From Devosia sp. 66-14 (lineage in GTDB: Bacteria; Pseudomonadota; Alphaproteobacteria; Rhizobiales; Devosiaceae): a DNA stretch of 64,000 bases. The DNA lies in NCBI GenBank assembly GCA_001899085.1, contig MKVB01000006.1:99537-163536 (forward strand), in the 5' to 3' direction. Below, piece by piece: positions 30,206 to 54,733 of the stretch. Under the pieces are notes generated by a model. It saw only the letters and a program-made list of their open reading frames with translations. It did not search any database and had not been told where the DNA came from. Within the stretch, counting starts at the first letter, position 1; the number at the start of each line of letters is the position of its first letter. The translations under genes were made by a program, and so were the position numbers.

Positions 30206-32475
30206 GCGGGCTCCTCTTGCCGTTCTGGCGCAGTCCATTCCAGCCGGTCCAGCGACCGGGCCTCGGCGACACTGGCGCGCTGTACGTCCGAAATCCCGGC
30301 CGTCAGCTTCAGCGAGTTCAGCACGTCGGTGAGCTGGGCGAGATCCCGGACCTCGATCTGGAAAATGAACCGATGGAAATCAGGCGATTCCATGCGCATG
30401 ACCAGATTATGAATGTTGGCCTCGCAGGCCGCAATCACCGTGGAGATCTGCGCCAGCGATCCGGGCTTGTTCTGCGCCTGCATCGAGATGACGCAGGGGT
30501 GGTCGTGCTCCTCGCGCCCCGCCAGGTCCCAGCGAACGTCGATCCAGGCGACATCGCTGTCGTAAAGCTCCGAAAGGGCGTCGGAGTGGATCGGGTAGAT
30601 GGTGATCGGGGTATCGGGCGTCATGATGCCGACCAGCCGATCGCCGGGCACCACGCCCTCAGGCGAAACCTCGACGCGGGTGTTGAAATCGAGCTGGGTC
30701 AGCGCTGCCTTGGCGCGGGGACCCGAGCGCGGATTGCCCGGGACACGGAAGCGGAACTCGTCGGTCGCCTTGAGGGCGAACCAGCCCTCGGCCTTGTCGG
30801 GCACCGGCAGGTCGATCTTCTTGCGCCGGCGCTTGATCCCCTTCACCTCCATGACCTGGGTGTCGAGGTCCTCGCCACCAATCTTGCCCTCGCCGAGCGC
30901 AATCAGCAGCTCGCGCTTGCTGGGTTGCCCCAGCCCCTCGGCCAGCGCCTTGAACTCGCCATCGTCAAGGCCGGTGCCTTCGCGCTCGAGCAGGATCGAG
31001 ACCATGTGCTCGCCCAGGGCATAGGCGCGCGCCTGCGCCTGCTGACGCACGGCGCGGCGGATGGCGGCGCGGGCCTTGCCGGTGGCGGCGATGGTCTCCC
31101 AGTTGCTGGGCGGCAGGTGGTTCTGGTCGCGGATGATCTCGACTTCGTCACCCGAACGCAGCTGCGTCACCAGCGGCACGATCTGCCCGTTGATCTTGGC
31201 GCCGACGCAGGTGTCGCCGATATCGGTGTGCAGCGCATAGGCGAAATCGATCGGGGTGGCGCCGCGCGGCAGCGCGATCAGCCGGCCGCGCGGGGTGAAG
31301 CAGAACACCTGGTCCTGGAACAGCTCGAGCTTGGTGTATTCGAGGAAGTCCTCGGTCGAGGAGCCGGCCGTCAGGTGGCTGATGGTCGAACGCAGCCAGA
31401 CGAAGGCCTTGCTCTCATTCTCGATCTTGTGGATGTCGGTGGCGCCCTCCTTGTAGAGGGCGTGCGCGGCAATGCCGAGCTCGGCGATGCGGTGCATCTC
31501 CTCGGTGCGGATCTGCAGCTCGGCGCGCTGCCGCCCTACCCCGACAATGGTGGTGTGGATGGAGCGGTAGTCATTGTGCTTGGGGACCGAGATATAGTCC
31601 TTGAAGCGGCCGGGCACGACCTTCCAGTTGGTGTGGACGATCCCCAGCGCCTTGTAGCAATCGGCCACCGTGGGGACGATCACCCGGAAGCCGATCATGT
31701 CCGACAGCTGCTCCAGCGCGATCTGCTTGCGCTCGATCTTGGTGAAGATCGACCACGGCGACTTCACCCGCGCCGACACCCTGGCATCGATGCCGTCGCC
31801 CTTCAGCTTCTCGCTGAGCTCGGTCTTGATGGTCTTGATGGTGTCGGCAAATTCCGACTTCATCTCGCCGAGCCGGTCGGTGATCGCCTGGTAGTGATCC
31901 GGCTGCAGCACGCGGAAAGCCAGGTCCTCGAGCTCCTGGCGCATGTCCTGCATGCCCATGCGGCCGGCGAGCGGCGCATAGATATCCATGGTCTCGGTGG
32001 CAATGCGCTTGCGCTTGTTCTCGGGCATGAAATCGAGCGTGCGCATGTTGTGCAGCCGGTCGGCGAGCTTGACCAGCAACACCCGCACATCGGCCGAGAT
32101 GGCCAGCAGCAGCTTCCTGAGATTTTCGGCCTGCGCTTCCTCGCGCGTCACCAGTTGCAGTCGATCGATCTTGGTCAGCCCGTCGACGATGGCGCCGATC
32201 TCGGGGCCGAACAGCTGGTCGATCTCGGCACGCGTCGCATCGGTGTCTTCGATGGTGTCGTGCAGTAACGCCACGGCGATCGAGGCGTCGTCGAGCTTCA
32301 GATCGGTGAGGATGGCGGCGACTTCGAGCGGGTGGGCGAAGTACGGGTCGCCCGAGGCGCGCTTCTGCGTGCCATGCTTCTGCATGGCATAGACATAGGC
32401 CTTGTTGAGCAGCGCCTCGTCGGTATTGGGGTTGTAGGCCTGCACCCGTTCGACGAGTTCGTACTGACGCATCAT
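30202..32475 (-). CDS. rsh: Bifunctional (p)ppGpp synthetase/hydrolase
   Basis: The 757-aa RelA/SpoT homologue sets ppGpp levels in the stringent response. The HD hydrolase site is intact (His72-Asp73 in [10 protein letters not shown], with His34 and His48). The synthetase has [13 protein letters not shown] and [17 protein letters not shown]; the C-terminal half has a TGS domain ([19 protein letters not shown]) and an ACT domain near the end. Both activities are therefore expected, as for the single Rsh of Alphaproteobacteria. Two adjacent ATGs (32475 and 32472) could serve. It precedes pyrE with a four-base overlap. Confidence 0.95.
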
Positions 32476-32609
32476 AGGGTTACCGCACTCTCCTACGCGG
32501 CCCCGCCTCGGCGGCTTACGTCCCAACGGCGCGAGATTGCCCGGAAACGTCGCATGACATTTCCTGATCCCGCTCGAGCGAGTATGTAAACAGGAAACGC
32601 TTGGCAAAC

Positions 32610-32640
32610 AAAAAAGCGCCGGGCGGAAACGCCCGACGCC
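32610..32640 (-). terminator. Terminator downstream of rpoZ
   Basis: On the minus strand GGCGTCGGGCG, loop TTTC and CGCCCGGCGC are followed by TTTTTT (32615-32610). The stem has one mismatch. It lies between rpoZ and rel, so part of rpoZ transcription should end here although rel follows on the same strand. Confidence 0.8.
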
Positions 32641-32671
32641 TCAAGACTATATATGCGAGATCAGGCGGCGA

Positions 32672-33040
32672 TCAATCGTCGCGACGCTCGGGCGGCGCGA
32701 GAGATTCGATGCCGCGCAGCAGCTCGTCTTCCGAGATCGTGTCGAAAGTGTCGCTGTCCTCGTCGGCATTGGCATCGAGGAGCGGCGCTGCGTGCTTCTC
32801 GGGCTCGTCGACCTCGACGTATTTCTGCAGCGAGTGGATCAGGTCTTCGCGCAGGTCTTCGGGAGAAATGGTGCCATCGCCGATCTCGCGCAGCGCCACG
32901 ACAGGGTTCTTGTCGTTGTCGCGGTCGACCGTAATGGACGAGCCGGCCGAGATCATGCGAGCGCGGTGCGCGGACATCAGCACGAGATCGAACCGGTTCT
33001 CGATCTTTTCAATGCAGTCTTCGACGGTGACGCGGGCCAC
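32672..33040 (-). CDS. rpoZ: RNA polymerase omega subunit
   Basis: The 122-aa protein starts with the omega signature [20 protein letters not shown], then [10 protein letters not shown] and [18 protein letters not shown]. Omega binds the beta' C-terminus and aids polymerase assembly. The C-terminal 60 residues are strongly acidic, as in other Alphaproteobacteria. It lies upstream of rel, the usual omega-ppGpp neighbour. Confidence 0.95.
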
Positions 33041-33386
33041 GTACGTCTCCAGGATGTTGTGGGATCAAGCGGTCCTCATACACGAGCGAACCGGTGGGCA
33101 CAAGGTTCTCGGTCCCGGTACACAAGAGCGTGTTTTTACCACAGCCGCGTGCTGTCTACGCAGTTTTTGTTTCGTGTGACGAAACAATGGGTTGCGCTCC
33201 CACCCCGAAACCCGACCGGCTCCGTCCAAATTTATGGGGATTGCAAATTCCCGGGATTAAGCGCGTATTCCGAACTTAGGGAGCGGACCACGCCTTAAAT
33301 AGGCTACCCTTCGATCCTAGCGGTAAGCCAACGATAGTTTATGCCGGGCAGCCTGAGAGGCCGGCCGCCCGGTCAGGAGAATAGGC
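33041..33386. other. 346-base divergent spacer with a 21-bp palindrome
   Basis: No gene was found. At 33167-33187 TTGTTTCGT, spacer GTG and ACGAAACAA form a perfect 9-bp inverted repeat, between rpoZ (minus) and the NYN gene (plus). It has no uridine run on either side suitable for termination, so an operator is the better guess. A ribosome site GGAG (33376-33379) precedes the NYN ATG. Confidence 0.5.
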
Positions 33387-33998
33387 ATGTCAATTGATCC
33401 GCGCGAGAAGACCGTTCTCTTCATCGATGGGGCCAATCTGTACGCGACCAGCAAGGCCATCGGCGTCGACATAGACTACCGACGACTGCTCGCCGAGTTC
33501 CAGTCCAAGGCCTACCTGCTTCGCGCTTACTATTACACCGCCCTGGTCGAGGACCAGGAATACTCCTCGATCCGGCCACTCATCGACTGGCTCGACTATA
33601 ACGGCTTCACCGTCGTCACCAAGCCGGCCAAGGAGTTCACCGACGCGTCCGGACGTCGCAAGATCAAGGGCAACATGGACATCGAACTCACGGTCGATGC
33701 CCTCGAGATGAGCCAGTACTATGACCACCTGGTGCTGTTCTCGGGCGACGGGGATTTCACCGCGCTGGTGGCGGCGCTGCAGCGCAAGGGCAAGCGCGTC
33801 ACCGTGGTCTCGACGCTCACCACGCCGACGCCGATGATCGCCGACGACCTGCGTCGGCAGGCAGATTTCTTCATGGACGTGGCCGACCTCGCCAAGATCG
33901 TCGGGCGTACGCCGCCGGTCGATCGCACCGCGCCGCATGTGGAACGGAGCGCGCCGGTTGACCGCACCATGGCGACCGTGGACCCTAAGGGAAGCTGA
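33387..33998 (+). CDS. NYN domain protein (LabA/DUF88 family)
   Basis: The 203-aa protein has a PIN-like NYN nuclease fold. Acidic residues are in VLFIDGANLYATSK, the central KGNMDIELTVDALEMSQ and LVLFSGDGDFTALV, the standard metal-binding set. The domain ends near residue 170; the tail repeats APxxRTxP-like units (VDRTAPHVERSAPVDRT). NYN proteins are thought to cut RNA; the LabA name comes from the cyanobacterial clock. Position beside rpoZ and a uracil-DNA glycosylase is conserved in the order. Confidence 0.88.
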   Translation: MSIDPREKTVLFIDGANLYATSKAIGVDIDYRRLLAEFQSKAYLLRAYYYTALVEDQEYSSIRPLIDWLDYNGFTVVTKPAKEFTDASGRRKIKGNMDIELTVDALEMSQYYDHLVLFSGDGDFTALVAALQRKGKRVTVVSTLTTPTPMIADDLRRQADFFMDVADLAKIVGRTPPVDRTAPHVERSAPVDRTMATVDPKGS

Positions 33999-34018
33999 GT
34001 CCCTCCCTTGCCTGATGG

Positions 34019-34660
34019 TTGCCATTGCCTGAGACCAACCCGCCGCACGATTGTCCGCGTTGCCCCCGCCTCGTGGCGTTCCGCCACGATAACCAGCGGA
34101 CCTATCCGGATTTCTTCAACGGGCCGGTGCCCACCTGGGGCGACGCGCATCCGGGGCTGATGATCGTCGGCCTCGCACCGGGTCTGAAGGGCGCCAACCG
34201 GACCGGCCGTCCGTTCACCGGCGATTATGCCGGCGACCTGCTCTACGCCACGCTTGAAAAGTTCGGCCTCGCAACAGGCCACTACCAGCAGCGACCCGAT
34301 GACGGGCTCGAGCTGCAGAACGTGCTCATCGCCAATGCGGTGCGCTGCGTGCCGCCGCAGAACAAGCCGACAGGCGACGAAATCAAGACCTGCCGACCAT
34401 TCCTCGGCGCCGCCATCGAGCACCACCAACCCCGCGCTTTTCTGGCGCTCGGGCGCATCGCGCACGATTCCCTGTTGTCGACACTGGGCGAGAAACGCTC
34501 GAAATTCGCATTCGGGCACGGCGCCGAGCACCGGCTCAGCAGCGGCGCCACGCTGTTCGATAGCTACCATTGCTCGCGCTACAACACGAATACCGGGGTG
34601 CTGACCACGGCGATGTTCGAGGACGTGGTGGGGCGGGCGGCGGAGGCGATCCGCAGCTAG
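34019..34660 (+). CDS. Uracil-DNA glycosylase, family 5 (UdgB-like)
   Basis: The 213-aa protein has iron-sulphur-type cysteines in DCPRCPRLV and later in RCVPPQNKPTGDEIKTC, the family 5 motif GLAPGLKGANRTGRPFTGDY and the C-terminal SYHCSRYNTNTG. Family 5 enzymes lack the usual polar Asp/Asn in motif A and excise uracil, hypoxanthine and other deaminated bases. No ATG is available; TTG at 34019 or 34025 must start it and no clear ribosome site is visible. Confidence 0.87.
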   Translation: MPLPETNPPHDCPRCPRLVAFRHDNQRTYPDFFNGPVPTWGDAHPGLMIVGLAPGLKGANRTGRPFTGDYAGDLLYATLEKFGLATGHYQQRPDDGLELQNVLIANAVRCVPPQNKPTGDEIKTCRPFLGAAIEHHQPRAFLALGRIAHDSLLSTLGEKRSKFAFGHGAEHRLSSGATLFDSYHCSRYNTNTGVLTTAMFEDVVGRAAEAIRS

Positions 34661-34755
34661 GCCTGCTGCCGGTCCCGCACCTCCGTTGACATCTGCAGAT
34701 GCCGGATGACAACCTTGTCACATAGTTTTCTCAGCACCTTCAAAGGGAAGCGCCC

Positions 34756-35646
34756 ATGCATGCCGCAAAGACCGGACTGACGATGTTGGTCGCCTCGTTC
34801 GCCCTGGTGGCCGCAACGATGGCGCAGGCAGAGACGGTGAGCGAGGTGACCGTGATGAACGGTGCGCGCGCCGTGCCGGCCACCGTCGTCGTTCCGGATG
34901 GCGAAGGCCCCTTCCCCGCAGTGGTGATGAACCACGGCCACGGCGGCGGCCGCCAGGAAGGCGGCGGTTTCACCCGCCTCGCCAAGGCGCTGGCCGACGC
35001 CGGCATCCTTACCATCCGCATGGATTTCCCCGGCAGCGGCGACAGCAAGGAACCCTTCACCGAGGGTTACCTGACGAACATGATCTCGGACTCGAATGCC
35101 AGCCTCGCCTATCTCCTGGCGAACTTTCCAGCCGACCCCGCCCGCCTGGGCATTCTCGGTTACAGCATGGGCGGGCGCATCGCGCTCACCATCGGCGAGA
35201 CGGAAGGTAACCCGTATAAGGCGATGGGCCTGCTCGCCCCGTCGGCCAATCCCGGCAAGGATCTGCTGCTGTTCTTTGCAGGTGGCTCGGAAGCCGAATA
35301 TGAGCGGCTCTATGCCGAAGCCTCGAGCGACAAGGGCTATGCCGACTACACCACCATGTTCGGGCAGCAGCAGAAGCTGAGCAAGCAGTGGTTCGATGAA
35401 TTGCTGGCTTCCAAGCCGCTCGAGAGCATCAGCGCCTACAAGGGCGCCATGCTGGTGGTCCATGGCGACAAGGACGTGGTGATCAAGCCGGCCGAGAACG
35501 AAGCTGTCATCGCCGCCTACCCTGCCGCCTCGATCGTCCTCGTCCCCGAAGCCGACCATGGCTATGGCTTTTACAGCGACCAGCCCGAGGTCAGCGCTCT
35601 GGTGGAAAGCTCGTTTGCGACGTTCTTCAGCGAAGCGCTGAAATAG
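34756..35646 (+). CDS. Exported alpha/beta hydrolase
   Basis: The 296-aa precursor has a signal peptide (TGLTMLVASFALVAATMA, cleavage at AQA-ET). The mature alpha/beta hydrolase has the oxyanion strand MNHGHGGGR, nucleophile Ser in LGYSMGGRI, and candidate Asp (HGDKDVVIK) and His (ADHGYG). It resembles dienelactone hydrolase/peptidase-like serine hydrolases; the periplasmic substrate is unknown. All triad residues are present, unlike the hydrolase-like gene at 39587. Confidence 0.83.
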   Translation: MHAAKTGLTMLVASFALVAATMAQAETVSEVTVMNGARAVPATVVVPDGEGPFPAVVMNHGHGGGRQEGGGFTRLAKALADAGILTIRMDFPGSGDSKEPFTEGYLTNMISDSNASLAYLLANFPADPARLGILGYSMGGRIALTIGETEGNPYKAMGLLAPSANPGKDLLLFFAGGSEAEYERLYAEASSDKGYADYTTMFGQQQKLSKQWFDELLASKPLESISAYKGAMLVVHGDKDVVIKPAENEAVIAAYPAASIVLVPEADHGYGFYSDQPEVSALVESSFATFFSEALK

Positions 35647-35673
35647 CTCCCGACGAGAGGTTCGGCGCGGGGC

Positions 35674-36165
35674 CTACCCCCGCCCGCCTTCTTTCATGAT
35701 CCGCGACTTGTCGCGGTTCCAGTCGCGGTTGCGCTCGGTTTCGCGCTTGTCGAAGCTTTTCTTGCCCTTACCGACACCGATCAGCAGCTTGGCGCGTCCC
35801 TGCTCGTTGAAGTAGAGCTTCATCGGCACGATGGTGTTGCCGGCGCGTTCGACGTCCTGGCTGAGCCGCGCCAGTTCCTTCTTCTTGACCAGCAGCTTAC
35901 GCGGCCGCTTTTCTTCGTGGTTGAAGCGGTTCGCCTGCAGGTATTCAGGGATGTGAGCGTTGATCAGCCACAGTTCACCGCGCTCCGGCGACGCATAGGC
36001 CTCGGTGATCTGGGCCTTGCCGGTGCGCAGCGACTTCACTTCGGTGCCAGTCAGCACGATGCCGGCCTCGAGCGTATCGGTGATCTCATAGTCGTAGCGG
36101 GCCCGGCGGTTCTCCGCGATCGGGCCGGTGACGATCATCGCCGGTTTGTTGGGTGTCTTGGCCAT
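35674..36165 (-). CDS. smpB: SsrA-binding protein SmpB
   Basis: The 163-aa protein escorts tmRNA to stalled ribosomes. The OB core is visible: [48 protein letters not shown], and a basic tail ([18 protein letters not shown]) that enters the mRNA channel. It follows dapA on the same strand. The tmRNA gene is not in the window. Confidence 0.95.
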
Positions 36166-36247
36166 GGTTTCCAGCGAGCAGTGATCAGAATAGCGAATAG
36201 CCAGGGGGCAGGTCGCGAAGCGCCTCCCCTACTCGCTACTCACTCAC

Positions 36248-37129
36248 TTAGTTGGGCAGCAGCCCCGCGTGCGACAAGGCCGCGTCGATCGCCTTCTCGT
36301 TGTCCTTCGACACCGGGATCACCGGCAGACGGAATTCATTGCGGCAAAGCCCGAGTCTGGCGGCCGCGTATTTGACGCCGCCGGGATTGTTCTCGAGGAA
36401 CAGGGCCTTATGCAGCGGGAACAGCTTGTCCTGCAGCGCCAGCGCTTCGGCGTAGTCGCCCTGCTGGCAGGCGTTCTGGAACAGCGCACCGAGACGCGGC
36501 GCCACATTGGAGGTCACGGAAATACAGCCATGGCCACCATGGGCGTTGAAACCGAGCGCCGTGACATCCTCGCCCGAGAGCAGGATGAACTCGGCCCCCA
36601 GCCGCATTCGCTGCGCGCTGGCCCGCTCCATGTTGGCCGTCGCATCCTTGACGCCGATGATGTTCGGATGTGCTTCGCGGAGGCGGACGATGGTATCGAC
36701 CGTGAGGTCGACAACAGTGCGGCCCGGCACCGAGTAGAGCACGATGGGCAGCGCGGTGGCCGAGGCCACCGCGGAGAAGTGCTGAAACAGCCCCTCCTGG
36801 GTGGGCTTGTTGTAGTAGGGCACGACCGACAATACGGCGTCGGCGCCGACGTCCTCGGCGAAGCGGGCAAGCGACACGGCTTCGGCGGTCGAGTTCGAAC
36901 CGGCGCCGGCGACCACCGGCACGCGCCTGGCCGTCACCTCGACGCAGATCTCGATGACCCGACGATGCTCTTCGTGGCTGACGGTCGGGCTCTCGCCGGT
37001 GGTGCCGACCGGCACAAGCCCATGCGAGCCCTCGTTGATTTGCCAATCGACGAAGTTGCTGAAGGCTTTCTCATCCAGCGCCCCGTTCGCGAACGGAGTG
37101 ATGAGCGCTGTGATCGAACCTCGCAACAT
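36248..37129 (-). CDS. dapA: 4-hydroxy-tetrahydrodipicolinate synthase
   Basis: The 293-aa TIM-barrel enzyme condenses pyruvate and aspartate semialdehyde, the first step of the diaminopimelate/lysine branch. Schiff-base Lys161 is in [10 protein letters not shown], Tyr132 in LYSVPGRT and the Thr pair in VGTTGESPT. It is followed by smpB after 82 bases containing short AGTAGCGAGTAG-type repeats. Confidence 0.96.
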
Positions 37130-40536: not shown

Positions 40537-41907
40537 CTAGCTGCCCGCAGCCTTTTTGGCGCTCGCCATCGCCGCGGCGATTTCTCGCGCCTGTTCGCGC
40601 CAGTGCTCGCGGCTGATCCGCCCGGCAATGCCCAGATGCGCCTCGATCCAGCCGGCATTTTCATCGGTCAGATCGGCGATCTGATCGAAATGGTACAGGC
40701 CCAGTCGGTTCAGCGCCGTCTCGATGATCGGCAGAATGCCGATGACATGAGTCAGATCGTCCTTGGCGCCCAGGCGCGGACCGGCCAGACCGTCGGGCTT
40801 TCCCGGCGGCTCGTCGCCCCCTGCGGCGACTGCCAGCTTTACCGCCATCGCCGCCGACGACACAGCGGCACCCGAGGCGAGCACGGCCTCGTCGGCGGCA
40901 ATTTCGGGCAGCTCGACGCGGCGGGTCCTGGCCGAACTGGTACGACGCGGCGACCAGTTGCCTTCGATCGCCCGCATCGCGGCCGCCTCATCGTCCTCGA
41001 TGGTCGGATCAGGTGCTGTAGCGGCAATCGGAAGCGCAGCACTCTCAACCGCGTCAGGCCCGGCAGCTTCTGCGGCCTCCGAGGGGGCAGAGACGTCAGC
41101 GGGACTATCCTGCGGCCGTGCAACCTCGACAGCCACGTTCAAGGCAGCAAGGCCCGCGCTCTCGTCGTCGGCCGCAGCGGGCTCGTGGAGGGGCTCGTGC
41201 TGCGCCACATCGGCAATGATGTCATCCGTGATCACCGACGACTGCATTGTCTCAGGCATGTCATCGCTGGCCGCATCGGTCGTTGGATCTGCAACACTCA
41301 CGGCAACTGTCTCGGCCTCTTCAGTTTCCACTGGAGGCGTCGGGACGGTTGCGCTTCCCTGCCCGGGCTCGACCGCCGCCTTCTCGAGCGGGAATGGAAT
41401 GACCTCAGCGCTGGCGCCTGTGGCAACCGGAGCGGGCGTCGCCGTCGCTGCGGTGCGGGGGTGAGCTATGACGCGACCCGACGTGGTGGCGCCGGCGACG
41501 CGGGCCGGCCCCATCGGCTCGGCCGGCTTCAGCACAGGAGCACCGGGCAGCGGCGCGATACGGGGAATGTGGACCGCCGTCCCCACAGCGCCGGGCTTGT
41601 CGCCGGCCAACGCCAGCAAGGCTTCGGTAAAATCGGGTGCCGGGATATCGGCCGGGGCTGTCGGCGCCGGCGTCCGCACGACTTCGCCGATCACCGGCGC
41701 CGCGACCAGGGCGGGTGCCTCGACGACCTGCGGGGCCAGATCCGCCGGCGTTGGCGCTGCGCTCGCGGCAATCGCAGCCGACGGCGCTACTTTCGGTCGA
41801 ACCAACCTCTGCGCAAGCAAACGCGCCAAGGACCCGATAGTGGCTCCGCCGAGGAACGCCACCAGCAGCAGCATGGCGATCTCGAGCAGGTGGGCAGGAT
41901 TCAGCAT
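40537..41907 (-). CDS. Membrane-anchored Ala/Pro-rich protein with helix-hairpin-helix-like C-terminus
   Basis: The 456-aa protein has one N-terminal membrane helix (HLLEIAMLLLVAFLGGATIG), a long low-complexity Ala/Pro/Glu region (about residues 45-385) and a C-terminal domain LTHVIGILPIIETALNRLG then LYHFDQIADLTDENAGWIEA. That domain matches the H3TH-like module of COG3743 proteins, but the usual KGIGP turn is changed (VIGILP). Position 10 bases after the 37-aa gene and on one strand with the OmpA/BON gene makes it the third gene of an operon. DNA binding is not shown; the module may be used for protein contacts. Confidence 0.75.
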   Translation of the reverse strand: MLNPAHLLEIAMLLLVAFLGGATIGSLARLLAQRLVRPKVAPSAAIAASAAPTPADLAPQVVEAPALVAAPVIGEVVRTPAPTAPADIPAPDFTEALLALAGDKPGAVGTAVHIPRIAPLPGAPVLKPAEPMGPARVAGATTSGRVIAHPRTAATATPAPVATGASAEVIPFPLEKAAVEPGQGSATVPTPPVETEEAETVAVSVADPTTDAASDDMPETMQSSVITDDIIADVAQHEPLHEPAAADDESAGLAALNVAVEVARPQDSPADVSAPSEAAEAAGPDAVESAALPIAATAPDPTIEDDEAAAMRAIEGNWSPRRTSSARTRRVELPEIAADEAVLASGAAVSSAAMAVKLAVAAGGDEPPGKPDGLAGPRLGAKDDLTHVIGILPIIETALNRLGLYHFDQIADLTDENAGWIEAHLGIAGRISREHWREQAREIAAAMASAKKAAGS

Positions 41908-41917
41908 GGCCGCCGCC

Positions 41918-42031
41918 TCACCCCTTGCGCTTGCCGAGCGACAACCACCCGGTTCCGAGACCGACAAGCGCGGCGCCGAGCACGAACGGCCAGTAGATCT
42001 CGAGCAGGTACGTCAACGAATCCAGGGTCAT
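41918..42031 (-). CDS. 37-residue single-span membrane protein
   Basis: The short frame between the two large genes encodes MTLDSLTYLLEIYWPFVLGA then ALVGLGTGWLSLGKRKG. It has one membrane helix (about residues 12-31) and a basic cytoplasmic end (KRKG), so the orientation is probably N-out. It starts 9 bases after the OmpA/BON stop and ends 10 bases before the next start. Tight packing and clean topology argue for a real gene. No family is recognised. The nearest functional analogy is the small membrane partners ArfB/ArfC of mycobacterial OmpATb. Confidence 0.7.
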   Translation of the reverse strand: MTLDSLTYLLEIYWPFVLGAALVGLGTGWLSLGKRKG

Positions 42032-42040
42032 CGCGTCTCG

Positions 42041-45000
42041 CTACTCGTCGGCCAGGGTGAACACGATGCGACGGTTCGCCTGCTTGCCGGCCCGGGTTTC
42101 GTTGCTTGCGATCGGCAGGCTCTCGCCGTAGCCGATGGCGTAGAGACGTTCCGGACCGATGCCGCGCAGGATCAGCGCATCGACAACCGCTTCGGCACGG
42201 GACACCGACAATGCCAGGTTGGCCTCGTCCTCGCCGTCGGAGTCCGTGTGACCTTCGACATTGACGGTCGCTTCCGGACACAGGGCCAGGTCGCCCGCCA
42301 GCTCGTCAATCACGGGCAGCGACTCCTCGGCCATCCTGGCACTGCCAGACTGGAAGGTGATGGCATTGCGGGCGGCAAGCGCGCCGACCTTGTCGCGACA
42401 GACATCGAGGGGCGGCAGCAGCGTCACGCTGGTTTCCCACTGATCGAGCGCCGGCACCGCGGCAAGCGCGGTCAGCGCCGCCTGCCTGGTCGCTTCGGTT
42501 TCGGCGCGGCCGATGAATACCCATTTGTCGCCGTCGAGCCCGAACTCGCCATCGGCCAGCAGGCTCAGGGCACGGCTGCCGGCATCGGCGCTGGTGATGA
42601 AATCCGCCGGCAAGTCGGGGTTGATGGCGAGGCCTTCCGACGGCTCCGCACCGGCGATCACCGCCAGATGGCGGCGCATCGGTTCAGCCGGCACTGCCCC
42701 GGAAAAGACCACGGCCCCGCCGATCGCCTTCCTGGCGTCGAACAGATAGTTGCGCGCAACGGGGGTGACCGCTTCGGTCGCCACTGCCGCGACGTCATCG
42801 GCGGGTTGCGGGTCCGCCGGGGCAGCCTCAGCCGGTTCCGCTGGCGGTACCGGCTCGGCTGGATCGACGGCTGCCGGTTCATCCGCGGGTACCGCATCCT
42901 CTGCCACGTCAGCGGCACTCGAGTCGTCTGCTGCCGGGGTGTCTGCAGCTGCAATGTCGCCCGGCTGATCAGCAGCTGCAGCGGTTTCCGCTGGCTGCTC
43001 GGTGGCGGCCTCGGCAGTCTGCTCCACCGGGGCGGGCTCGGCTGCGGCCGGCTGTGTCGGCTCGGCGAGCGCCTGGGTCCAGCGGGCGCCGCCATCGGAG
43101 GCCGTCGCCAGCGCTGCCCGCGCCGCCTCGGCATCAGCCGGCGTCAACGGCTGCCCCGACAGCGACCAGCCTTTGCCGTCATACTTCACCTCACCGCTTT
43201 CAAGCCGCAGCAGGGCGTCGAGACCAGCGAGCGAGTCCGGGATAAAGCCTTGCGGCTCGCCTGAGCCGACAAGCGTCGTATCGCTGGCAACCTTGCCCGC
43301 GCGCACAACCGCAAAGCGGCGCACCTGCTCGGTCGGGACGTAACCGGAAAACGTCACGCTGCCGTCGGCGGCCTTGGTGGCCGACCAGACGAATGGCGTA
43401 ACCACCGGCGCCGCATCGGCGGCCTGTATGGCGACGTGCCAGGCCGAGACATCAGTCGCAGCGCGCAGTCCCGTTTCGACGGCATAGCGAGCGGTAGTGG
43501 TCGGCAACTTGCCGGTCAGCGACCAGTTGCCTGCCGATAGCGCCAGCGTGCCCTCGTCCATTGCCAGCAGGGCATCGAGCCCGGCGATCGACGCCGGGAT
43601 GAAGCCTTCCGGCGCACCGGCGCCGAGCGCCGTTCCATCGACGACTGCGCTTCCCGCATGCCCGGCGAGGTAGCGCTTCAACTGTTCGGTCGGCACGAAG
43701 CCGCCAAAGGTGACGGTGCCATTGGCCGATTTCTGCGCGCGCCAGACATAGGGATCGACCACCGGCAGTGCCGCAACCTTTGCCGCACCAGGCAGACTGA
43801 CCGCATAGGTCCAGCCGGCCGAGCGAAGACCGGTGGAGGCGAAGGCCGACTCGGCGGCGAACGCCTCTTGCGGGGTGTCGACGGCACCGCTGAGGCTCCA
43901 GCTGGCGCCATCATAGCTCACCTTGCCACTGTCGAGCAGCGCCAGGACGCCAAGCGCCTTCACCGCCGCCGCCTCGAAGTCGGCCGGATTGCCGTCGGCG
44001 ATGACCATGGTATCGGTGGCGGTCGGCAGTTGCCCAAGCAGCGCCTTCCGAACCGCAGCGCTCGGCACATAGCCCGACAGCGTGAATTGTCCGGCCGCCG
44101 TCTTCTCGGCTGCAAAGGTGAATGGTGTCGCCAAAGGCGGCTTGATGACCATACCAGCGAGGATGAGTCCCTGCGGCGCGCCGAGTTCGAGCCGCGTCTC
44201 GATGGCCGTGAAGTCGGCGACGGTTGCCGCCCGGCCTTCCACCGATATGACGGTGCCCTGGATCGACGCCTGACCTTCGCTCATCCGGCGCAACGTCTCG
44301 ATGACGAAGTCGACGCCTGACTCGAAGCGTTCCGGTGCCCCGCGCCCCAGTTCCAGGCCGGCCGCATCGACATTGTCCAGCGCTTCCAGCCGATCGCGCA
44401 GCGCCGCGTCCGGAACGAAGCCATCCAGCACGATGCCCGCCGGGCCGCGCTCGGCGCTCAGCCAATACTCGGCGACCTGCGGCGGCCCCAGCGTTACGGC
44501 AGTGCCCGAGGGGGTCATCGCGACCCGCACCGTTTCAGCAGTCGCCGTATCGGCAGGAGAGCCCGCCAGTGTTGAAGTATCGCCGGAGATATTGGCGCTA
44601 CCACTCTCCAGCTTCAGCAAATTCTGCACCAGCAGCTTGGCGGATTGAGCGAAACCAGCGGGAGCGCCTGAAGCGAGAACGAGGCTGGTGGACACCGTCC
44701 CGGCGGGAGCCAGCGCTTCGAGCTCGCGGACCAGCTCGTCGCTCGGCGTGGCGCCGGACAGAGTCAGTCGCCGGCCGTCATACTCCGCGTGCCACTCGAA
44801 TGGCGACCGCAAAGCCGGCTGCACTTCCCGATATGCCAGCTTTACCGACGCCGGCAGTTCGAGAGCGGCCACGCCTTCGAGATCCTCATAGGCCTCGGCC
44901 GACCTGGCTCGCCCGGAGATGGTCAAGTCCAGATCCGCGAGGGCGACCTCGCCTTCGTCGAGCTGGCTCGCATAGCGGAGCGCGTAGCGCGCCGCAGCAA

Positions 45001-45454
45001 TCCAGGCTGCACGATTTGGAGCGCCCGACATCGGACGGGTCTCGTCCCGCATCCCCGCGCCGGCGGCGGAAAGAATCGCAGCGCGCGCCTCCTCGTCCGG
45101 GACGCCGCCGGTCAAGGTGACGACCCCGCCGCTGACGGTAGCAATAAGTGGAAACGGGCTCACATACTCGGCGAGCACCGCGTTCGACGTCACCGAGCGC
45201 ACGCCATGCACAGCGGCAACCCTGGCGACGGCTTCATCGATCATGGCCTGGGTGGTTGCGGTGCCGGTGATGGTGGCATCGCGCATGTTGAAGCTGACTG
45301 CGGCCCACTCGTGCTCCGCGTCGGCGAGGACGGCTTCCGAACGTGCCGCGAGGTCGGGCTGGACGGCGTTGCCGCTCGTCGCGATAGCAGCGGCCGTACC
45401 GCCGATAACCGTGACGAAGGCTGGTACGCCCCAGCGCAGGAAAATGCCGCTCAT
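42041..45454 (-). CDS. Giant BON/OmpA repeat protein, inner-membrane anchored
   Basis: The 1137-aa protein begins with a membrane helix (residues 8-26), then a BON-like domain (45-95). Repeats of about 115 residues begin near 98, 217, 328, 443, 567, 686 and, after an acidic Ala/Pro linker (797-900), 901. The repeat consensus is PFxWxAxKxxxGxVTFSGYVP ... GAPEGFIxxxxAGLDALL ... WSLSG. An OmpA-like peptidoglycan-binding domain closes it (1031-1135: EGHTDSDGEDEANLALS, SRAEAV, ANRRIVF); Cys1019 and Cys1059 may form a disulphide. It likely links the inner membrane to peptidoglycan. It heads an operon with two further membrane proteins. Confidence 0.85.
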   Translation of the reverse strand: MSGIFLRWGVPAFVTVIGGTAAAIATSGNAVQPDLAARSEAVLADAEHEWAAVSFNMRDATITGTATTQAMIDEAVARVAAVHGVRSVTSNAVLAEYVSPFPLIATVSGGVVTLTGGVPDEEARAAILSAAGAGMRDETRPMSGAPNRAAWIAAARYALRYASQLDEGEVALADLDLTISGRARSAEAYEDLEGVAALELPASVKLAYREVQPALRSPFEWHAEYDGRRLTLSGATPSDELVRELEALAPAGTVSTSLVLASGAPAGFAQSAKLLVQNLLKLESGSANISGDTSTLAGSPADTATAETVRVAMTPSGTAVTLGPPQVAEYWLSAERGPAGIVLDGFVPDAALRDRLEALDNVDAAGLELGRGAPERFESGVDFVIETLRRMSEGQASIQGTVISVEGRAATVADFTAIETRLELGAPQGLILAGMVIKPPLATPFTFAAEKTAAGQFTLSGYVPSAAVRKALLGQLPTATDTMVIADGNPADFEAAAVKALGVLALLDSGKVSYDGASWSLSGAVDTPQEAFAAESAFASTGLRSAGWTYAVSLPGAAKVAALPVVDPYVWRAQKSANGTVTFGGFVPTEQLKRYLAGHAGSAVVDGTALGAGAPEGFIPASIAGLDALLAMDEGTLALSAGNWSLTGKLPTTTARYAVETGLRAATDVSAWHVAIQAADAAPVVTPFVWSATKAADGSVTFSGYVPTEQVRRFAVVRAGKVASDTTLVGSGEPQGFIPDSLAGLDALLRLESGEVKYDGKGWSLSGQPLTPADAEAARAALATASDGGARWTQALAEPTQPAAAEPAPVEQTAEAATEQPAETAAAADQPGDIAAADTPAADDSSAADVAEDAVPADEPAAVDPAEPVPPAEPAEAAPADPQPADDVAAVATEAVTPVARNYLFDARKAIGGAVVFSGAVPAEPMRRHLAVIAGAEPSEGLAINPDLPADFITSADAGSRALSLLADGEFGLDGDKWVFIGRAETEATRQAALTALAAVPALDQWETSVTLLPPLDVCRDKVGALAARNAITFQSGSARMAEESLPVIDELAGDLALCPEATVNVEGHTDSDGEDEANLALSVSRAEAVVDALILRGIGPERLYAIGYGESLPIASNETRAGKQANRRIVFTLADE

Positions 45455-45621: not shown

Positions 45622-45657
45622 AAAAAACAGAAAGGCCCGGCTGACGCCGGGCCTTTC
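45622..45657 (-). terminator. Terminator of the porin gene
   Basis: On the minus strand GAAAGGCCCGGC, loop GTCA, GCCGGGCCTTTC and then TGTTTTTT. The 12-bp stem is perfect, 23 bases after the porin stop. It insulates the downstream OmpA/BON operon from strong porin transcription. Confidence 0.92.
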
Positions 45658-45679
45658 CAATCCGATTGGGCCGTAAGGC

Positions 45680-47357: not shown

Positions 47358-49115
47358 CTAGCTCAAAAGCTCGGGGTGGAGTTGCCGCCAGACGGCCATG
47401 TGCGCCGAGTGGTTAGCCGCGCCTTCGTCACGAGACCAGTCATCGTATTGGGCCTCGGACTGAACAGGCGCGTGCAGCGCGTCATCCCACGCAGCGCCGC
47501 AGAAGGCCAGCAGAGGCTCGGCCAGAACCTGCCGATCAGCCATCAGGGCACCCACGTCCACGTCATGGATGAAGCCCGGGAACCGAGCGTGCCAATCCGC
47601 CATCAGTTGCGCATAGGCCGCATGATAGCCGCGCAGTTCGGCGAGGTCGTTGGCGTACTCGAACCCGGCGCCGGTGAGGAGTTTCTCGAATATGGCGACA
47701 CGGTGCTCTGCTGCAGGCCGAACACAATGGATGATCCGGGCGTGGGGAAGAGCGAGACGGATGAACCCCAGATGGTAGAGGTTGGACGGCATGGTATCGA
47801 TGGCGCGCTTGCCGTCGGCGACCGACCTTCCGGCCTCCTCGATATAGGCGCGCCCCAGCGCCGCAAAGCGCTCGGGGGCAATCATGGACAACGGGGCCCC
47901 ATTCGCCTCCCGCATCAGTTCGCGCACCAGCCGGCCCATGGTTGGAAGTTCCCCGGCACCAGCGAGCCGTGGGTGAGATGAAAGAAGCTTCTCGAGTGTG
48001 GTTTTGCCCGAGCGCGGCAAGCCGACAATGAAGATCGGACTCGCCTCAGAAGTGGCGGCCAGCGGCATCTCCTCAACCTCCCGGAAGCGCGCAACAGTCG
48101 ATTTCATGAACTCGACCTCGCGACTCAAGGAGAACGCGACACGCTGCCGCTGCAGTCGATTTGCCTCGATGAATGCCGCGACGGATTCGGTGTGATCGCC
48201 GAGGTCAGCCAGAGCCTTGCCCAGCGCAAAGCCGGCAAAGATGCGATCTTCAGTGGCAACGCGGTCCGAGTTGAACACAGCCGCCATGGCCTCCACGGCG
48301 CCGTCGCGCTGCCGATAGCGAACGGAGACGGCTCGTTGAAGATGCGCTTCGCCATAGGCCGGCCTCAGGGCAAGGGCGCGATCGAAGCCGGAGACCGCCC
48401 TTTGCAGATCCCCGCGGGCGTAGAGGGCGCGGGCCCGCTGCAGATGGAGCGCGGCCTCGTCGGGGAGAACGATCAACCCGCTGTCAAGCAGGGCCACAGC
48501 CTCATCTGCGCGGCCCTGGTCGATCAGGATGAATGCGAGACTGGTGTAGGCTTCAGCATAGTCGGGCCGCAGCTTGATCGCCTGGCGGTAGGACGCCTCC
48601 GCCGCGAAATGATCTCCTGCCTGGCGAAGGGCGCCCGCCAATCTGAAATGAAACACAGCTTCAGTTGGTCGTATCTCGGTGGCACGGCGATATGCCTCTG
48701 CCGCATCGTCGAAGCTGCCTGACGCGCGAAGCGCCAAGCCAAGATTCGAATGGGCTTCCGCCGATGTCGGATTCGTCGACACGGCCCGACGAAACACCTC
48801 CACCGCCTCATCGTTGCGCCCCGCCCTGGTCAGCGCCACGCCCATATTGCCCAGGTATTGGGCGTTCGATGGCTCTTGCTTCAGCGCCACAGCAATGTGG
48901 CGGATGGCGGCGGTCGTTTCGCCCTGCTGCAACTGCGTGAGGCCGAACAGGTGGTTGGCTGCGGGATGGCTGTCGTCGCGGCGCAGGATCTGCCGGTAGA
49001 GGTCTGCCGCTTCACCGCCGCGGCCGGCCTGGTGCAATTCCATGCCGAGCCGAAGCAGGCTCTCGACGGTCGGACTTTGCGACTGGCTGCGAGGGGGACG
49101 ACGGGAGGAGGACAT
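47358..49115 (-). CDS. TPR-repeat sulfotransferase-like protein
   Basis: The 585-aa protein has about eight tetratricopeptide repeats (residues 15-290; for example AHSNLGLALRASGSFDDAAE) and a C-terminal sulfotransferase domain. The PAPS 5'-phosphosulphate loop is IFIVGLPRSGKTTLEKLLSS. The 3'-phosphate motif reads IHCVRPAAEHRVAIFEKLL, which departs from the usual RHPxDxxLS, so activity is uncertain. Such TPR-sulfotransferases are common in Alphaproteobacteria without known substrates. A similar domain occurs at 49994. Confidence 0.8.
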   Translation of the reverse strand: MSSSRRPPRSQSQSPTVESLLRLGMELHQAGRGGEAADLYRQILRRDDSHPAANHLFGLTQLQQGETTAAIRHIAVALKQEPSNAQYLGNMGVALTRAGRNDEAVEVFRRAVSTNPTSAEAHSNLGLALRASGSFDDAAEAYRRATEIRPTEAVFHFRLAGALRQAGDHFAAEASYRQAIKLRPDYAEAYTSLAFILIDQGRADEAVALLDSGLIVLPDEAALHLQRARALYARGDLQRAVSGFDRALALRPAYGEAHLQRAVSVRYRQRDGAVEAMAAVFNSDRVATEDRIFAGFALGKALADLGDHTESVAAFIEANRLQRQRVAFSLSREVEFMKSTVARFREVEEMPLAATSEASPIFIVGLPRSGKTTLEKLLSSHPRLAGAGELPTMGRLVRELMREANGAPLSMIAPERFAALGRAYIEEAGRSVADGKRAIDTMPSNLYHLGFIRLALPHARIIHCVRPAAEHRVAIFEKLLTGAGFEYANDLAELRGYHAAYAQLMADWHARFPGFIHDVDVGALMADRQVLAEPLLAFCGAAWDDALHAPVQSEAQYDDWSRDEGAANHSAHMAVWRQLHPELLS

Positions 49116-51655: not shown

Positions 51656-52809
51656 GCGGCCCCGTACACCCTCTCCCCCGCAATCCAGGTCGAACGCACC
51701 TTCAGATCGTCGCTGAGCACGGCGAAGTCACCGCGAGCACCCTGGGTCAGATGGCCGCGATCGGCTTCGGCGTGGATGGCGCGGGCGGGGTAGAGGCTCG
51801 CCATGCGCAGCGCCTCGTCGAGCGGCACGCCGATGGTCTGGTGGACGTAGCGAATGGCGTCGATCATGGCGAGATCGGCGCCGGCGAGGGTGCCGTCTGC
51901 GAGGCGCAGGGCGCCGTCCTTGCGGTAGACGGTGCGGCCGGTGAGCTCGAACTCGGTCCAGTCCGTGCCGGTGATCGACATGGCGTCGGAGACGAGGAAA
52001 ATCTGGCTCGGCCCCCGCTTGGCGCGCAGCGCAATGCCGATCGAGGCCGGGTGCACGTGGATGCCGTCGGCGATGAGGCCGGCATCGAGTCCCGGCAGGT
52101 CGAGTACGGCGCCAACCAGGCCCGGTTCGCGATTGCCGATCTGGCTCTGGGCGTTGAACAGGTGCGTCGCCATCGAGGCTCCGGCCTCGACGGCAGCGGC
52201 AACCTGCACATAGGTGGCGTCGGAATGGCCGATACTGACGACGATGCCGGCCGCCGCGAGGCGGGAAATCTGCTCGGGGCCAACGGTTTCCGCGGCGACG
52301 GTAATGAGGAGAGTCGGCAGTGCGCGCTTGGCAGCGAGAAGCCGCTGCAGGTCGGCTTCGTCCATCGGGCGGATCAGTGCCGGATCGTGTGCCCCCTTGC
52401 GGGCGATGGACAAATGCGGGCCCTCGAGATGGAGGCCGAGGAAGCCAGGGACATGCTGGTCTGTCGCGGTGACACCGGCGGCGATGACGGCCTCGTTCTT
52501 GGGCACCGTGTCGGTGATCAGCGTCGGCAGGCAACCGGTACAGCCGAACTGCGCCAAGGTGGCGCAGATGGTGCGGATCGCATCGAGCGTCGGGGTGTCG
52601 TTGAGCAGAGCGCCACCGGCGCCGTTGACCTGCAGATCGAGGAAACCGGGAACGATCATGGCGCCATCGGCGGGAACGCGGATGGCATCGGTCGGCGAAT
52701 CCGCGGCGATCAGGCCTTCGACCTTGCCGTCAGCGACCACCAGCGCCATGTGGTCGTGCCACTCGGCGCCGTCGAAGATGCGGGCTCCGGTGAAGGCTTG
52801 CTTGGCCAT
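51652..52809 (-). CDS. nagA: N-acetylglucosamine-6-phosphate deacetylase
   Basis: The 385-aa amidohydrolase has PGFLDLQVNGAGG (residues near 55-67), the metal Glu in LGLHLEGPH, His in VSIGHSDATY and THLFNAQSQ, and catalytic Asp in LVSDAMSITG. It converts GlcNAc-6-P to glucosamine-6-P. ATG 52809 has GGAGA six bases before. It is the third gene after gntR and the SIS gene, separated from the latter by 91 bases. Confidence 0.94.
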   Translation of the reverse strand: MAKQAFTGARIFDGAEWHDHMALVVADGKVEGLIAADSPTDAIRVPADGAMIVPGFLDLQVNGAGGALLNDTPTLDAIRTICATLAQFGCTGCLPTLITDTVPKNEAVIAAGVTATDQHVPGFLGLHLEGPHLSIARKGAHDPALIRPMDEADLQRLLAAKRALPTLLITVAAETVGPEQISRLAAAGIVVSIGHSDATYVQVAAAVEAGASMATHLFNAQSQIGNREPGLVGAVLDLPGLDAGLIADGIHVHPASIGIALRAKRGPSQIFLVSDAMSITGTDWTEFELTGRTVYRKDGALRLADGTLAGADLAMIDAIRYVHQTIGVPLDEALRMASLYPARAIHAEADRGHLTQGARGDFAVLSDDLKVRSTWIAGERVYGAA

Positions 52810-52900
52810 AGTCTGTCTCCGAGTGTTTTGGCCGCCCCCAACTCCCGAGGGGGGCGACATCCTGTTCCGAACGTTCCCGAACGCAGGCCGTCGAGGCGGG

Positions 52901-53950
52901 TTAGATGGTTTCCGTGACCTTCTTGAGGTGCGGCGGACGGTCCGGATCGAAGCCGCGGCGACGGCTCAGGGCTTCGACGAAACCGTAGAAGCTGACGATC
53001 AGCGCCAGGGCGTCGGTGATGGCATGGCCGGAAGCGGCAAAGGGCAGCCGTTCAGCGCTCTGGGCATTGACCGAGGTGATGAAGACGCGGGCGCCCTGCC
53101 CGGCCAGCCGTTCGGCGACTTCGGCGACCGAGGCCTCGGCGGCGTCGCGGGCGGCGAGGGCCAGTACCGGGAAATGGTGCTCGACGATGCGGGCCGGGCC
53201 ATGAATGACCTCGGCAGCGCTGTAGGCCTCGGCGTGGATGCCGCAGGTTTCCTTGAACTTGAGCGCCGCTTCGCTGGCGATGGCAAGCGCAGGACCGCGA
53301 CCCAGGACGTAGAGCGACTGATGCTGGTCGAGCGCGCCCAGCAGCGGCGACCAGTCGCAATGCACGGCCTGTTCGAGAACCTCAGGCAGTGAGTCGAGAG
53401 CGGCCAGCAGCGCCTTGTCTTCCAACCAGTTTCCCACGAGTCCAAGCCCGGCCACGACCGACGCGACAAAGGTCTTGGTGGCGGCGACCGACTTCTCCTC
53501 GCCCGAGCGAAGCGCGATGGTCTGATCCGAGGCCCGGGCGAGCGGCGAATCCGGCGTGTTGGTCAGCGCGAAGGTCAACGCGCCATTCTTCTTCGCCGAC
53601 TGGGTCATGCCGACGATGTCGGGGCTCTTGCCCGACTGCGAGATGGCGATGGCGGCGGTGCCGCTGAGCTTCAGCTCCCGGCCATAGATCGAATAGACCG
53701 AGGGGCCGACCGAGGCGACCGGCACGCCAGCCAACAGCTCGATGGAGTATTTGAGGAACGAAGAGGCGTGGTCGGAGGAGCCGCGCGCGATGGTGACGAT
53801 GGCGGTGGGGTCGGCAGCGCGGAGCGCCTTGCCGGCGGCGACGAAGTCGGCCTTGCCCTCCGACAGCAGGCGGGCGATCGCCGACGGGGTCTCTTCGACT
53901 TCCTGGCGCATGTAGCTGGCGTTGGCGGCTGTGGTCACGGCATCACTCAC
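52901..53950 (-). CDS. SIS-domain aldose/ketose isomerase, probable glucosamine-6-P deaminase (NagB-II type)
   Basis: The 349-aa protein has two SIS domains: TIARGSSDHASSFLKY and IAISQSGKSPDIVGM in the first, YVLGRGPALAIASEAALKFK in the second, ending in the catalytic-lobe-like PHLKKVTETI. It lacks the glutaminase half of GlmS, so it should deaminate or isomerise sugar phosphate rather than make it. In this operon it probably converts glucosamine-6-P to fructose-6-P and ammonia. It starts 9 bases after gntR stops. Confidence 0.9.
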   Translation of the reverse strand: MSDAVTTAANASYMRQEVEETPSAIARLLSEGKADFVAAGKALRAADPTAIVTIARGSSDHASSFLKYSIELLAGVPVASVGPSVYSIYGRELKLSGTAAIAISQSGKSPDIVGMTQSAKKNGALTFALTNTPDSPLARASDQTIALRSGEEKSVAATKTFVASVVAGLGLVGNWLEDKALLAALDSLPEVLEQAVHCDWSPLLGALDQHQSLYVLGRGPALAIASEAALKFKETCGIHAEAYSAAEVIHGPARIVEHHFPVLALAARDAAEASVAEVAERLAGQGARVFITSVNAQSAERLPFAASGHAITDALALIVSFYGFVEALSRRRGFDPDRPPHLKKVTETI

Positions 53951-53959
53951 GGTTTGCGA

Positions 53960-54733
53960 TCATTTGCGGGCGGCGTCACCGACTCTGAGCTCGGCGACGA
54001 AATCATAGGTGTCGCCGCGATAGACCGAGCGGGTCAGTTCTACAACTTTCCCCGAGGGAAGGTAGGCGACCCGTTCGATGTGGAGCGCGGCGGCTCCAGG
54101 GGGAATCTCGAGCAGACGGGCATCGTCCTCATCGAGGTTGGCGGCCCGGATGCGCTGGATAGCACGGACCGGCCGGTTGCCGGTCTTTTCGAGATGCGAG
54201 TAGAGCGAGGAGCCGACCGAGGCCGGATCGGGCAGCGTCGCTGCCGACAGCGCGGCACGTTCGATGGCGAGCGGCATATCGCCTGAAAGACGCAGCCGCT
54301 CGACGCGGGCGACCTGCTCGCCCGGCGACAGACCCAGGATCATGGTCTCCTCGGGCGAGGGATCATAGATGCCACGGTCGAGCCAGATGGCGCGCACGGC
54401 CATGCCGCGCCGCGCCATATCCTCGGTGAACGAGGTGAGCTGACTCAGCGATTGCTCGACGCGGTTCTGATGTTGGGCAACGAAGGTCCCCGAGCCGTGG
54501 CGCTGAATCAGCACGCCATCGCGCACCAGATGCTGCACGGCCTTGCGCACGGTGACGCGTGAGACTTCGACCCGCGCGGCCAGATCGCGCTCCGAAGGGA
54601 GCGCATCGCCGGGCTTGATGGCGCCCCGCGCCACCGCGTCCTCGATCCAGCGCTTCAGCTGCAGGTAAAGCGGACCACCCTGCGGCAGGATGATGGCTTG
54701 GGCACTGAACAGGGCATTGCTGTTGCTGGTCAA
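53960..54733 (-). CDS. GntR/HutC family regulator of amino-sugar use
   Basis: The 257-aa protein has an N-terminal GntR winged helix (LYLQLKRWIEDAVARGAI, ALPSERDLAARVEVSRVTVR) and a C-terminal UTRA ligand domain (residues 100-250). It resembles NagR/DasR regulators, whose effector is a phosphorylated amino sugar. As first gene of the nagA operon it probably represses itself; an inverted repeat lies inside its promoter. Confidence 0.9.
   Translation of the reverse strand: MTSNSNALFSAQAIILPQGGPLYLQLKRWIEDAVARGAIKPGDALPSERDLAARVEVSRVTVRKAVQHLVRDGVLIQRHGSGTFVAQHQNRVEQSLSQLTSFTEDMARRGMAVRAIWLDRGIYDPSPEETMILGLSPGEQVARVERLRLSGDMPLAIERAALSAATLPDPASVGSSLYSHLEKTGNRPVRAIQRIRAANLDEDDARLLEIPPGAAALHIERVAYLPSGKVVELTRSVYRGDTYDFVAELRVGDAARK

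Follow-up and report, generated by a model that had tools for sequence, protein, structure and literature searches.

The closest described relative of the longest gene product treated here is ArfA (Rv0899, OmpATb) of Mycobacterium tuberculosis, which is encoded in the ArfABC operon together with further membrane proteins, ArfB and ArfC; ArfA combines an N-terminal membrane helix with a double-BON central unit and a C-terminal OmpA domain that holds two cysteines. Its central domain has six strands and three helices (PMC6151718, available part), and the protein has been argued over as a porin, an acid factor or an ammonia factor, with its roles contested, in the accessible sections of PMC3816664. 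The same source places Rv0899-like proteins in nitrogen-fixing bacteria, citing Marassi 2011; these are probably the same family in rhizobial relatives, and the family link of Rv0899 to rhizobia is already in print and so is not new. We analysed a 64,000-nucleotide stretch of Devosia sp. 66-14 (assembly GCA_001899085.1, contig MKVB01000006.1, positions 99,537 to 163,536 of the forward strand; 'the window' is this whole stretch) that carries a three-gene set for a long BON/OmpA protein related to ArfA (protein 1), a 37-residue membrane peptide (protein 2) and a membrane protein that ends in a helix-hairpin-helix (HhH) tail (protein 3).

Two further described systems share parts with the set. 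DolP and BonA, the dual-BON lipoproteins, have BON domains and an envelope role in common with protein 1 and, unlike it, are outer-membrane lipoproteins; we know of no OmpA domain or membrane-helix partners for them. Protein-O of the Dinoroseobacter shibae reaction centre–light-harvesting 1 (RC-LH1) complex (PDB 8YY9) has, like protein 3, an N-terminal membrane part, a long flexible linker and a C-terminal HhH tail; it differs in its disulfide-closed helix-turn-helix membrane part, in its membership of a photosynthetic complex and in its gene, which lies between nuoE and nuoF. In that structure (chain 8yy9_O) the N-terminal membrane part lies between reaction centre and antenna, linker and tail were unseen, and the functions of such HhH-tail domains are called obscure by the authors (PMC12079452, available part).

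Conservation of the gene set

Linkage was scored in 58 loci of the order Hyphomicrobiales from 48 of 61 genomes, chosen for their matches (loci and genomes carry L and G handles), with some genomes contributing two rows to the count. Outside this test were the own genome, G002 (a short contig), G005, G013, G021, G038-G041, G044, G052, G058 and G059; dropped from it were L080, L135, L137, L140, L142 and L143, in which the automatic test detected no gene with units, and the contig-end rows L139 and L144. Among the 51 unit-bearing rows, a strict automatic test detected each partner, peptide or HhH protein, in 42 and the two together downstream in 38 (27 of 34 rows of the Devosia family and 11 of 17 rows of other families), to which reading by eye added L060, L072, L073 and L145, giving both partners in 42 of 51. 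The other rows held the peptide with a membrane protein that lacks the HhH tail (L052, L078), only the peptide (L147), only the HhH protein (L141) or neither partner (L059, L067, L075, L082), and one L149 row covered part of a gene that is split. Of 24 genomes beyond the Devosia family, at least 14, no two from one family, showed both partners on reading by eye (G037, G042, G043, G045, G046, G047, G049, G050, G051, G053, G055, G056, G057 and G060); of the remaining ten, G048 and G054 were without one or both partners and eight were outside the count. The median distance from the protein 1 gene to the peptide was 9.5 bases.

The linkage of the three genes exceeds chance, and the conserved gene order across Hyphomicrobiales for which the original prediction had proposed a search is found in the Devosia family and, of 24 further families sampled, in at least 14, with homologues linked and not scattered. 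No transglycosylase or hydrolase neighbour was present in the examined stretch in 6 of the 38 both-partner rows, some of which are short contigs, so that the set is apparently not kept merely by local order. In the window the genes are separated by 9 bases (42032-42040, genes 1 and 2) and 10 bases (41908-41917, genes 2 and 3); coordinates, minus strand and spacings were all right in the original prediction when rechecked, and spacing and conservation together suggest one operon. A scan for sigma-70-type promoters found 0, which says little for this bacterial group.

Architecture of protein 1

Protein 1 matched Pfam models above cut-off for BON (47.4 bits against 27) and OmpA (63 bits against 27.2). 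An iterated profile of the repeat unit matched it seven times at 82-106 bits each; the units, of about 115 residues, lie six ahead of a low-complexity linker and one behind it. With the same profile 42 of 45 scored relatives had one to eight full units per protein, L118 and L119 scored none and L080 had two fragments of 8-9 bits, where partial matches below 15 bits were excluded from the counts and the profile had been iterated on the same set that it scored. An AlphaFold2 model of protein 1 built with 15 orthologues (mean predicted local distance difference test (pLDDT) 79.5, predicted template modelling score (pTM) 0.39, unit-to-unit placement unresolved) built all seven units from six strands and three helices apiece, and by this modelled count they are predicted to be central double-BON units of the ArfA type. 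In L149 protein 1 is split over two overlapping reading frames (L149 1-15789), like a frameshift or an assembly error.

Both ends of the protein hold positions conserved in 15 orthologues. At the C-terminus C1019, C1059, D1071 and R1086 are invariant, and the Pfam match together with the invariant D/R pair marks an OmpA-type peptidoglycan-binding domain; the positions that correspond to D1071 and R1086 elsewhere among OmpA domains bind the peptide of the wall. At the N-terminus V16, G19 and T20 are invariant and P11 nearly so, and a helix is predicted, at low confidence, at residues 6-42; with this conserved P/G/T pattern it is a candidate for an uncleaved membrane anchor of the ArfA kind. For the inner-membrane anchor and peptidoglycan-binding OmpA end that the original prediction gave to this product, an N-terminal helix and a peptidoglycan-type OmpA domain are supported.

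The top solved sequence for the whole of protein 1 was Rv0899 (2l26, E 1.1e-16), in an alignment that spans the OmpA domain, with C1019 and C1059 on both Rv0899 cysteines, and part of the first unit at 6.7 bits. The NCBIfam ArfA model NF051434 matched four stretches (E 9.5e-15), at 54.9 bits against a cut-off of 81. Three points tell against a close assignment: the OmpA domain alone is equally near YiaD (E 4.3e-17) and Rv0899 (E 2.5e-17), YiaD is the top NCBIfam model for protein 1 (102.5 bits, below its cut-off), and the unit profile reaches Rv0899 chains first but weakly (E 0.007). Because YiaD is equally near, the unit-profile link is weak and the ArfA cut-off is missed, protein 1 is called an ArfA relative with multiplied units and not a formal member of the NCBIfam ArfA model. 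That model matched 3 of 142 genomes of the class at E 1e-6, 0 of them above cut-off, and 0 of 14 control genomes, with no match at E 1e-6 in the own genome, and is therefore too narrow for the group. The likeness to ArfABC that had been proposed at the outset is upheld as a resemblance of protein 1 to ArfA; the repeats, then counted as a difference, look like multiplied copies of the ArfA-type unit, of which ArfA has one and protein 1 seven, in addition to an extra N-terminal BON and the long linker.

Proteins 2 and 3

The 37-residue gene is under protein-level selection: over all pairs of seven sequences the pooled ratio of nonsynonymous to synonymous differences (pN/pS) was 0.29 in frame against 1.53 and 2.17 in two other frames, which rules out a chance reading frame. 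G24 is invariant in 28 picked protein 2 peptides, called in the relatives' loci by pattern, with G28 and W29 conserved in 90% or more of them; in the helix of protein 3, G21 and G25 are invariant in 18 picked sequences. A profile comparison of the two helices with hhalign gave a probability of 90.4 (E 1.4e-6). Ungapped helix similarity at 8 of 12 loci outside the Devosia family (L069, L071, L072, L073, L076, L077, L079 and L081, hand-chosen and trimmed to a common register, which favours the result) was reached by 0 of 5000 shuffles (z 10.5) and did not stay high when the register was shifted. The two proteins appear to have one membrane-helix module in common, marked by a GxxxG pair, for which tandem duplication of the helix would be a simpler reading than a shared pattern under common constraint. 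Lysine and arginine are more numerous C-terminal to the helix in 22 of 28 protein 2 peptides (fewer in 2) and in 18 of 18 protein 3 helices, whereas the N flank of the protein 1 helix has 22 lysines and arginines and 0 aspartates and glutamates in 14 sequences. The charges predict the N-terminus inside for protein 1, less clearly, and the C-terminus inside for proteins 2 and 3.

The protein 3 tail was matched by the NCBIfam models of NuoE, ribosomal S2 (residues 370-446), L21 and phasin PhaH, all below cut-off, with no match in Pfam, and was predicted as a compact helical domain (pLDDT 91.4, pTM 0.81). Searched against the PDB, the protein 3 profile matched 9wqv_a (E 4e-40) and 8yy9_O (E 2.5e-38), the tail carrying most of the match, and an HhH tail occurs at one other place of the own genome (E 2e-9). 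The hairpin reads GILPI in the window and close kin and GIGPK in many relatives; it lacks the canonical GxGxK of HhH DNA-binding proteins, and because it is eroded in this way DNA binding by the tail is less likely. The HhH-like tail of the original prediction, put forward as binding DNA or protein, is thus retained on the sub-threshold NCBIfam matches and the confident fold, and a DNA-binding role is disfavoured. The linker of protein 3 ranges from tens to several hundred residues across relatives (L043-L066), both ends being conserved. In L050 the protein lies in two reading frames (7024-8200), like a frameshift or an assembly error.

Loci outside the order

A search of the class in which OmpA matches were included found 52 of 142 genomes at E 1e-15, mostly over the OmpA domain alone. 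Of 17 loci picked by eye from these matches, four (L116, L117, L118 and L119) encode, beside the BON/OmpA gene, a membrane protein whose N-terminal helix is similar; no such partner was seen beside the gene in the other 13, which unit scoring did not cover. A profile was then made of the N-terminal module, with L116, L118, L119 and a Paroceanicella plasmid sequence among its own members, and at E 1e-4 it matched 14 of the 142 genomes of the class, eight of them more weakly than 1e-12; matches below 1e-12 were the own genome, the source genomes G082, G125 and G196, and newly G130 (same order, contig end) and G140. Such a membrane protein is also downstream in G140 (L093) and on the Paroceanicella plasmid (L133), which brings to six the loci beyond the order where a helix of this kind accompanies a BON/OmpA gene (L093, L116, L117, L118, L119 and L133), with an HhH tail in L117 and a tail without HhH in L116 and L133. 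We infer that the two-gene form is older than the three-gene form. A plasmid search returned 39 records, of which 37 align over 9-12% of the query, roughly the extent of the OmpA domain, and two over 20% (Paroceanicella and Rhizobium lusitanum); the Paroceanicella plasmid carries the two-gene form.

Discussion

On balance we favour, with modest confidence, the view that the three genes specify an inner-membrane assembly that holds a periplasmic arm of variable length and grips peptidoglycan. Protein 1, its N-terminal helix (N in, C out) serving as the inner-membrane anchor, would cross the periplasm by way of one BON domain and seven ArfA-type double-BON units, and would grip peptidoglycan through its C-terminal OmpA domain, the number of units setting the reach of the arm. 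Proteins 2 and 3 would be related helices of opposite topology (N out, C in) in the same membrane, whose conserved GxxxG faces may pack them, probably against each other and the protein 1 helix, so as to stabilise the arm. Protein 3 would add a cytoplasmic, flexibly tethered HhH head that in this clade more likely binds protein than DNA. Support is drawn from protein-O, likewise a transmembrane-plus-HhH protein with the same type of tail, whose N-terminal helices place it within a membrane complex. The data show the gene set and its conservation, the domains and units, the invariant glycines, the likeness of the two small helices and the joint absence with the anchor, whereas complex formation, the topology, binding to peptidoglycan and a mechanical or spacing role are inferred from them.

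Joint absence of the partners coincided with an unanchored protein 1. Protein 1 was classed by eye in 40 loci (L043-L082; 18 later loci, including L150, were outside this test) as anchored with an N-terminal BON in 31 and unanchored in 9, and both partners were absent in 4 of 9 unanchored loci (L059, L067, L075, L082) against 0 of 31 anchored ones (Fisher p 0.0014), in a post hoc test with classes set by eye and loci related by descent. The unanchored proteins, with a signal-peptide-like start and no N-terminal BON, are those of L057-L061, L063, L067, L075 and L082. Besides these limits of the anchor test and the pattern-called peptides, hand-chosen loci, equal nearness of the OmpA domain to YiaD and weak unit-profile match to Rv0899 noted above, further points weigh against an inner-membrane assembly of this kind. 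Both partners are kept in 5 of the 9 unanchored loci and in L150, a tenth unanchored locus outside the count, and because unanchored loci keep them the partners cannot always pack against the protein 1 helix. The C flank of that helix is also rich in lysine and arginine (27), though aspartate and glutamate are higher (33), and the model of protein 1 has, besides its pTM of 0.39, a pLDDT near 50 over the first 30 residues.

A bolder version of the assembly, which we regard as doubtful, is a two-sided envelope ruler in which duplicated GxxxG helices couple the cytoplasmic HhH head to a unit-counted peptidoglycan arm, with mycobacterial ArfABC as the one-unit form of the same ancient system. If it held, the acid-response operon of tuberculosis and a widespread alphaproteobacterial wall tether would be the same system.

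Among other explanations, an ArfABC-type stress system for acid or nitrogen stress adaptation, in keeping with the permeability or low-pH ammonia release reported for ArfA, with proteins 2 and 3 as functional counterparts of ArfB and ArfC, is unlikely. The kinship of protein 1 with Rv0899 and the three-gene set with two further membrane proteins agree with it, as do ammonia secretion at low pH and the occurrence of Rv0899-like proteins in bacteria of nitrogen fixation or metabolism; yet the role of ArfA is itself disputed (both PMC3816664, accessible sections), and the wide presence of the set in the order, often beside housekeeping genes, indicates no special stress. Quite improbable is an outer-membrane, lipid-side factor in the manner of DolP or BonA, whose BON units would bind phospholipid or oligomerise at the division site while the OmpA domain merely held the protein in the wall. 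The BON domain of DolP does bind anionic phospholipid and guides the protein to the division site (PMC7806268, available part), and BonA is a divisome-localized decamer (PMC8406262, available part), but in place of a lipoprotein signal and exactly two BON domains protein 1 has seven units of ArfA type plus OmpA and, in its N-terminal stretch, no cysteine and hence no lipobox, and no chain named DolP or BonA was among six unit-profile matches up to E 5. That genes 2 and 3 are linked to gene 1 by genome order only, each with its own role and protein 3 as another alphaproteobacterial HhH-tail protein without a wall role, would fit the spread of the tail over NuoE, S2, L21 and PhaH models, PDB chains and one other place of the genome and the conserved surroundings in Devosia kin, but is very improbable given the 6 loci that keep the set without a transglycosylase or hydrolase neighbour and the six loci outside the order in which a similar helix follows BON/OmpA genes.

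Assembly or not, a related set is common in an order of mostly harmless soil bacteria and has natural arm lengths of one to eight units, which would make the ArfA question testable outside a pathogen; the two small partners with their conserved glycines add to its usefulness for that purpose, and the set supplies a gene neighbourhood for one of the alphaproteobacterial HhH-tail proteins. Among the matches listed, no open paper was recognised that describes the three genes as a set, the helix common to proteins 2 and 3 or the series of units, subscription papers being outside the search. The Rgs polar-growth proteins of Sinorhizobium meliloti are likewise envelope proteins, several of them well conserved in Hyphomicrobiales, but their reported domains do not match: RgsA-RgsS are given as IalB, M15 peptidase, apolipoprotein-like, TPR/Sel1 and SPOR, none BON or OmpA, in the available part of PMC7327166. 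OmpA has 0 occurrences in that paper, and the Rgs proteins were set apart by these domain descriptions alone. The available part of a paper on Rhizobium phaseoli and aluminium describes a main protein with a single BON and names three more induced BON proteins.

Features and neighbourhood of the locus

Table 1. Features of the three-gene set and its upstream border, in window coordinates.
Feature	Coordinates	Strand	Basis
Protein 1 gene (1137 aa, ArfA/Rv0899-related BON-repeat/OmpA protein)	42041..45454	minus	domain searches, alignment, model
Predicted inner-membrane anchor, N-terminal helix, residues 1-42	45329..45454	minus	conservation, charges, low-confidence model helix 6-42
First single BON, residues 45-97	45164..45322	minus	Pfam BON, top stretch 54-93; modelled strands and helix
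Unit 1, residues 99-213	44816..45160	minus	unit profile and model
Unit 2, residues 217-326	44477..44806	minus	unit profile and model
Unit 3, residues 328-440	44135..44473	minus	unit profile and model
Unit 4, residues 441-563	43766..44134	minus	unit profile and model
Unit 5, residues 566-683	43406..43759	minus	unit profile and model
Unit 6, residues 685-798	43061..43402	minus	unit profile and model
Low-complexity linker, residues 805-898, predicted disordered	42761..43042	minus	pLDDT < 50
Unit 7, residues 901-1016	42407..42754	minus	unit profile and model
OmpA-type domain, residues 1015-1137	42041..42412	minus	Pfam, conservation, Rv0899 alignment
Protein 2 gene (37 aa, single predicted membrane helix with G24xxxG28W29)	41918..42031	minus	
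Protein 3 gene (456 aa: membrane helix, long low-complexity linker, helix-hairpin-helix tail)	40537..41907	minus	
Membrane-helix module of protein 3, about residues 8-30, G21xxxG25	41818..41886	minus	
HhH/H3TH tail of protein 3, residues 371-446, hairpin GILPI	40570..40797	minus	NCBIfam, alignment, model
Terminator-like hairpin past the end of the upstream porin gene	45628..45659	minus	14-pair stem, T run, position

The terminator-like hairpin may separate the porin gene from the three-gene set, and membership of the porin in the operon is disfavoured by it, though terminator-like sites in the stretch (2 found against 2.7 expected from shuffles) show no excess over chance. Upstream of the porin, at 47358-49115, a protein with TPR and sulfotransferase domains is encoded (Pfam TPR, Sulfotransfer_3), whose top NCBIfam match, magnetosome MamA, is below cut-off. 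Downstream of the set lie convergent genes for an alpha/beta hydrolase and a lytic transglycosylase and, upstream of the latter, a housekeeping cluster (27706-37129) with frames that resemble rnc, lepB, acpS, pyrE, relA/spoT, an NYN gene, uracil-DNA glycosylase, smpB and dapA, names taken from reading the translations by eye. Local gene order around the set is also conserved in Devosia kin. In R. leguminosarum the NYN gene is RL1504 and rpoZ is RL1505, and the available part of the R. leguminosarum attachment paper gives no phenotype for the three genes of the set. No tRNA was found in the window. GC skew is positive (0.05 to 0.14 per 2 kb) over about 52000-64000 of the window, earlier values being about -0.05 to 0.03.

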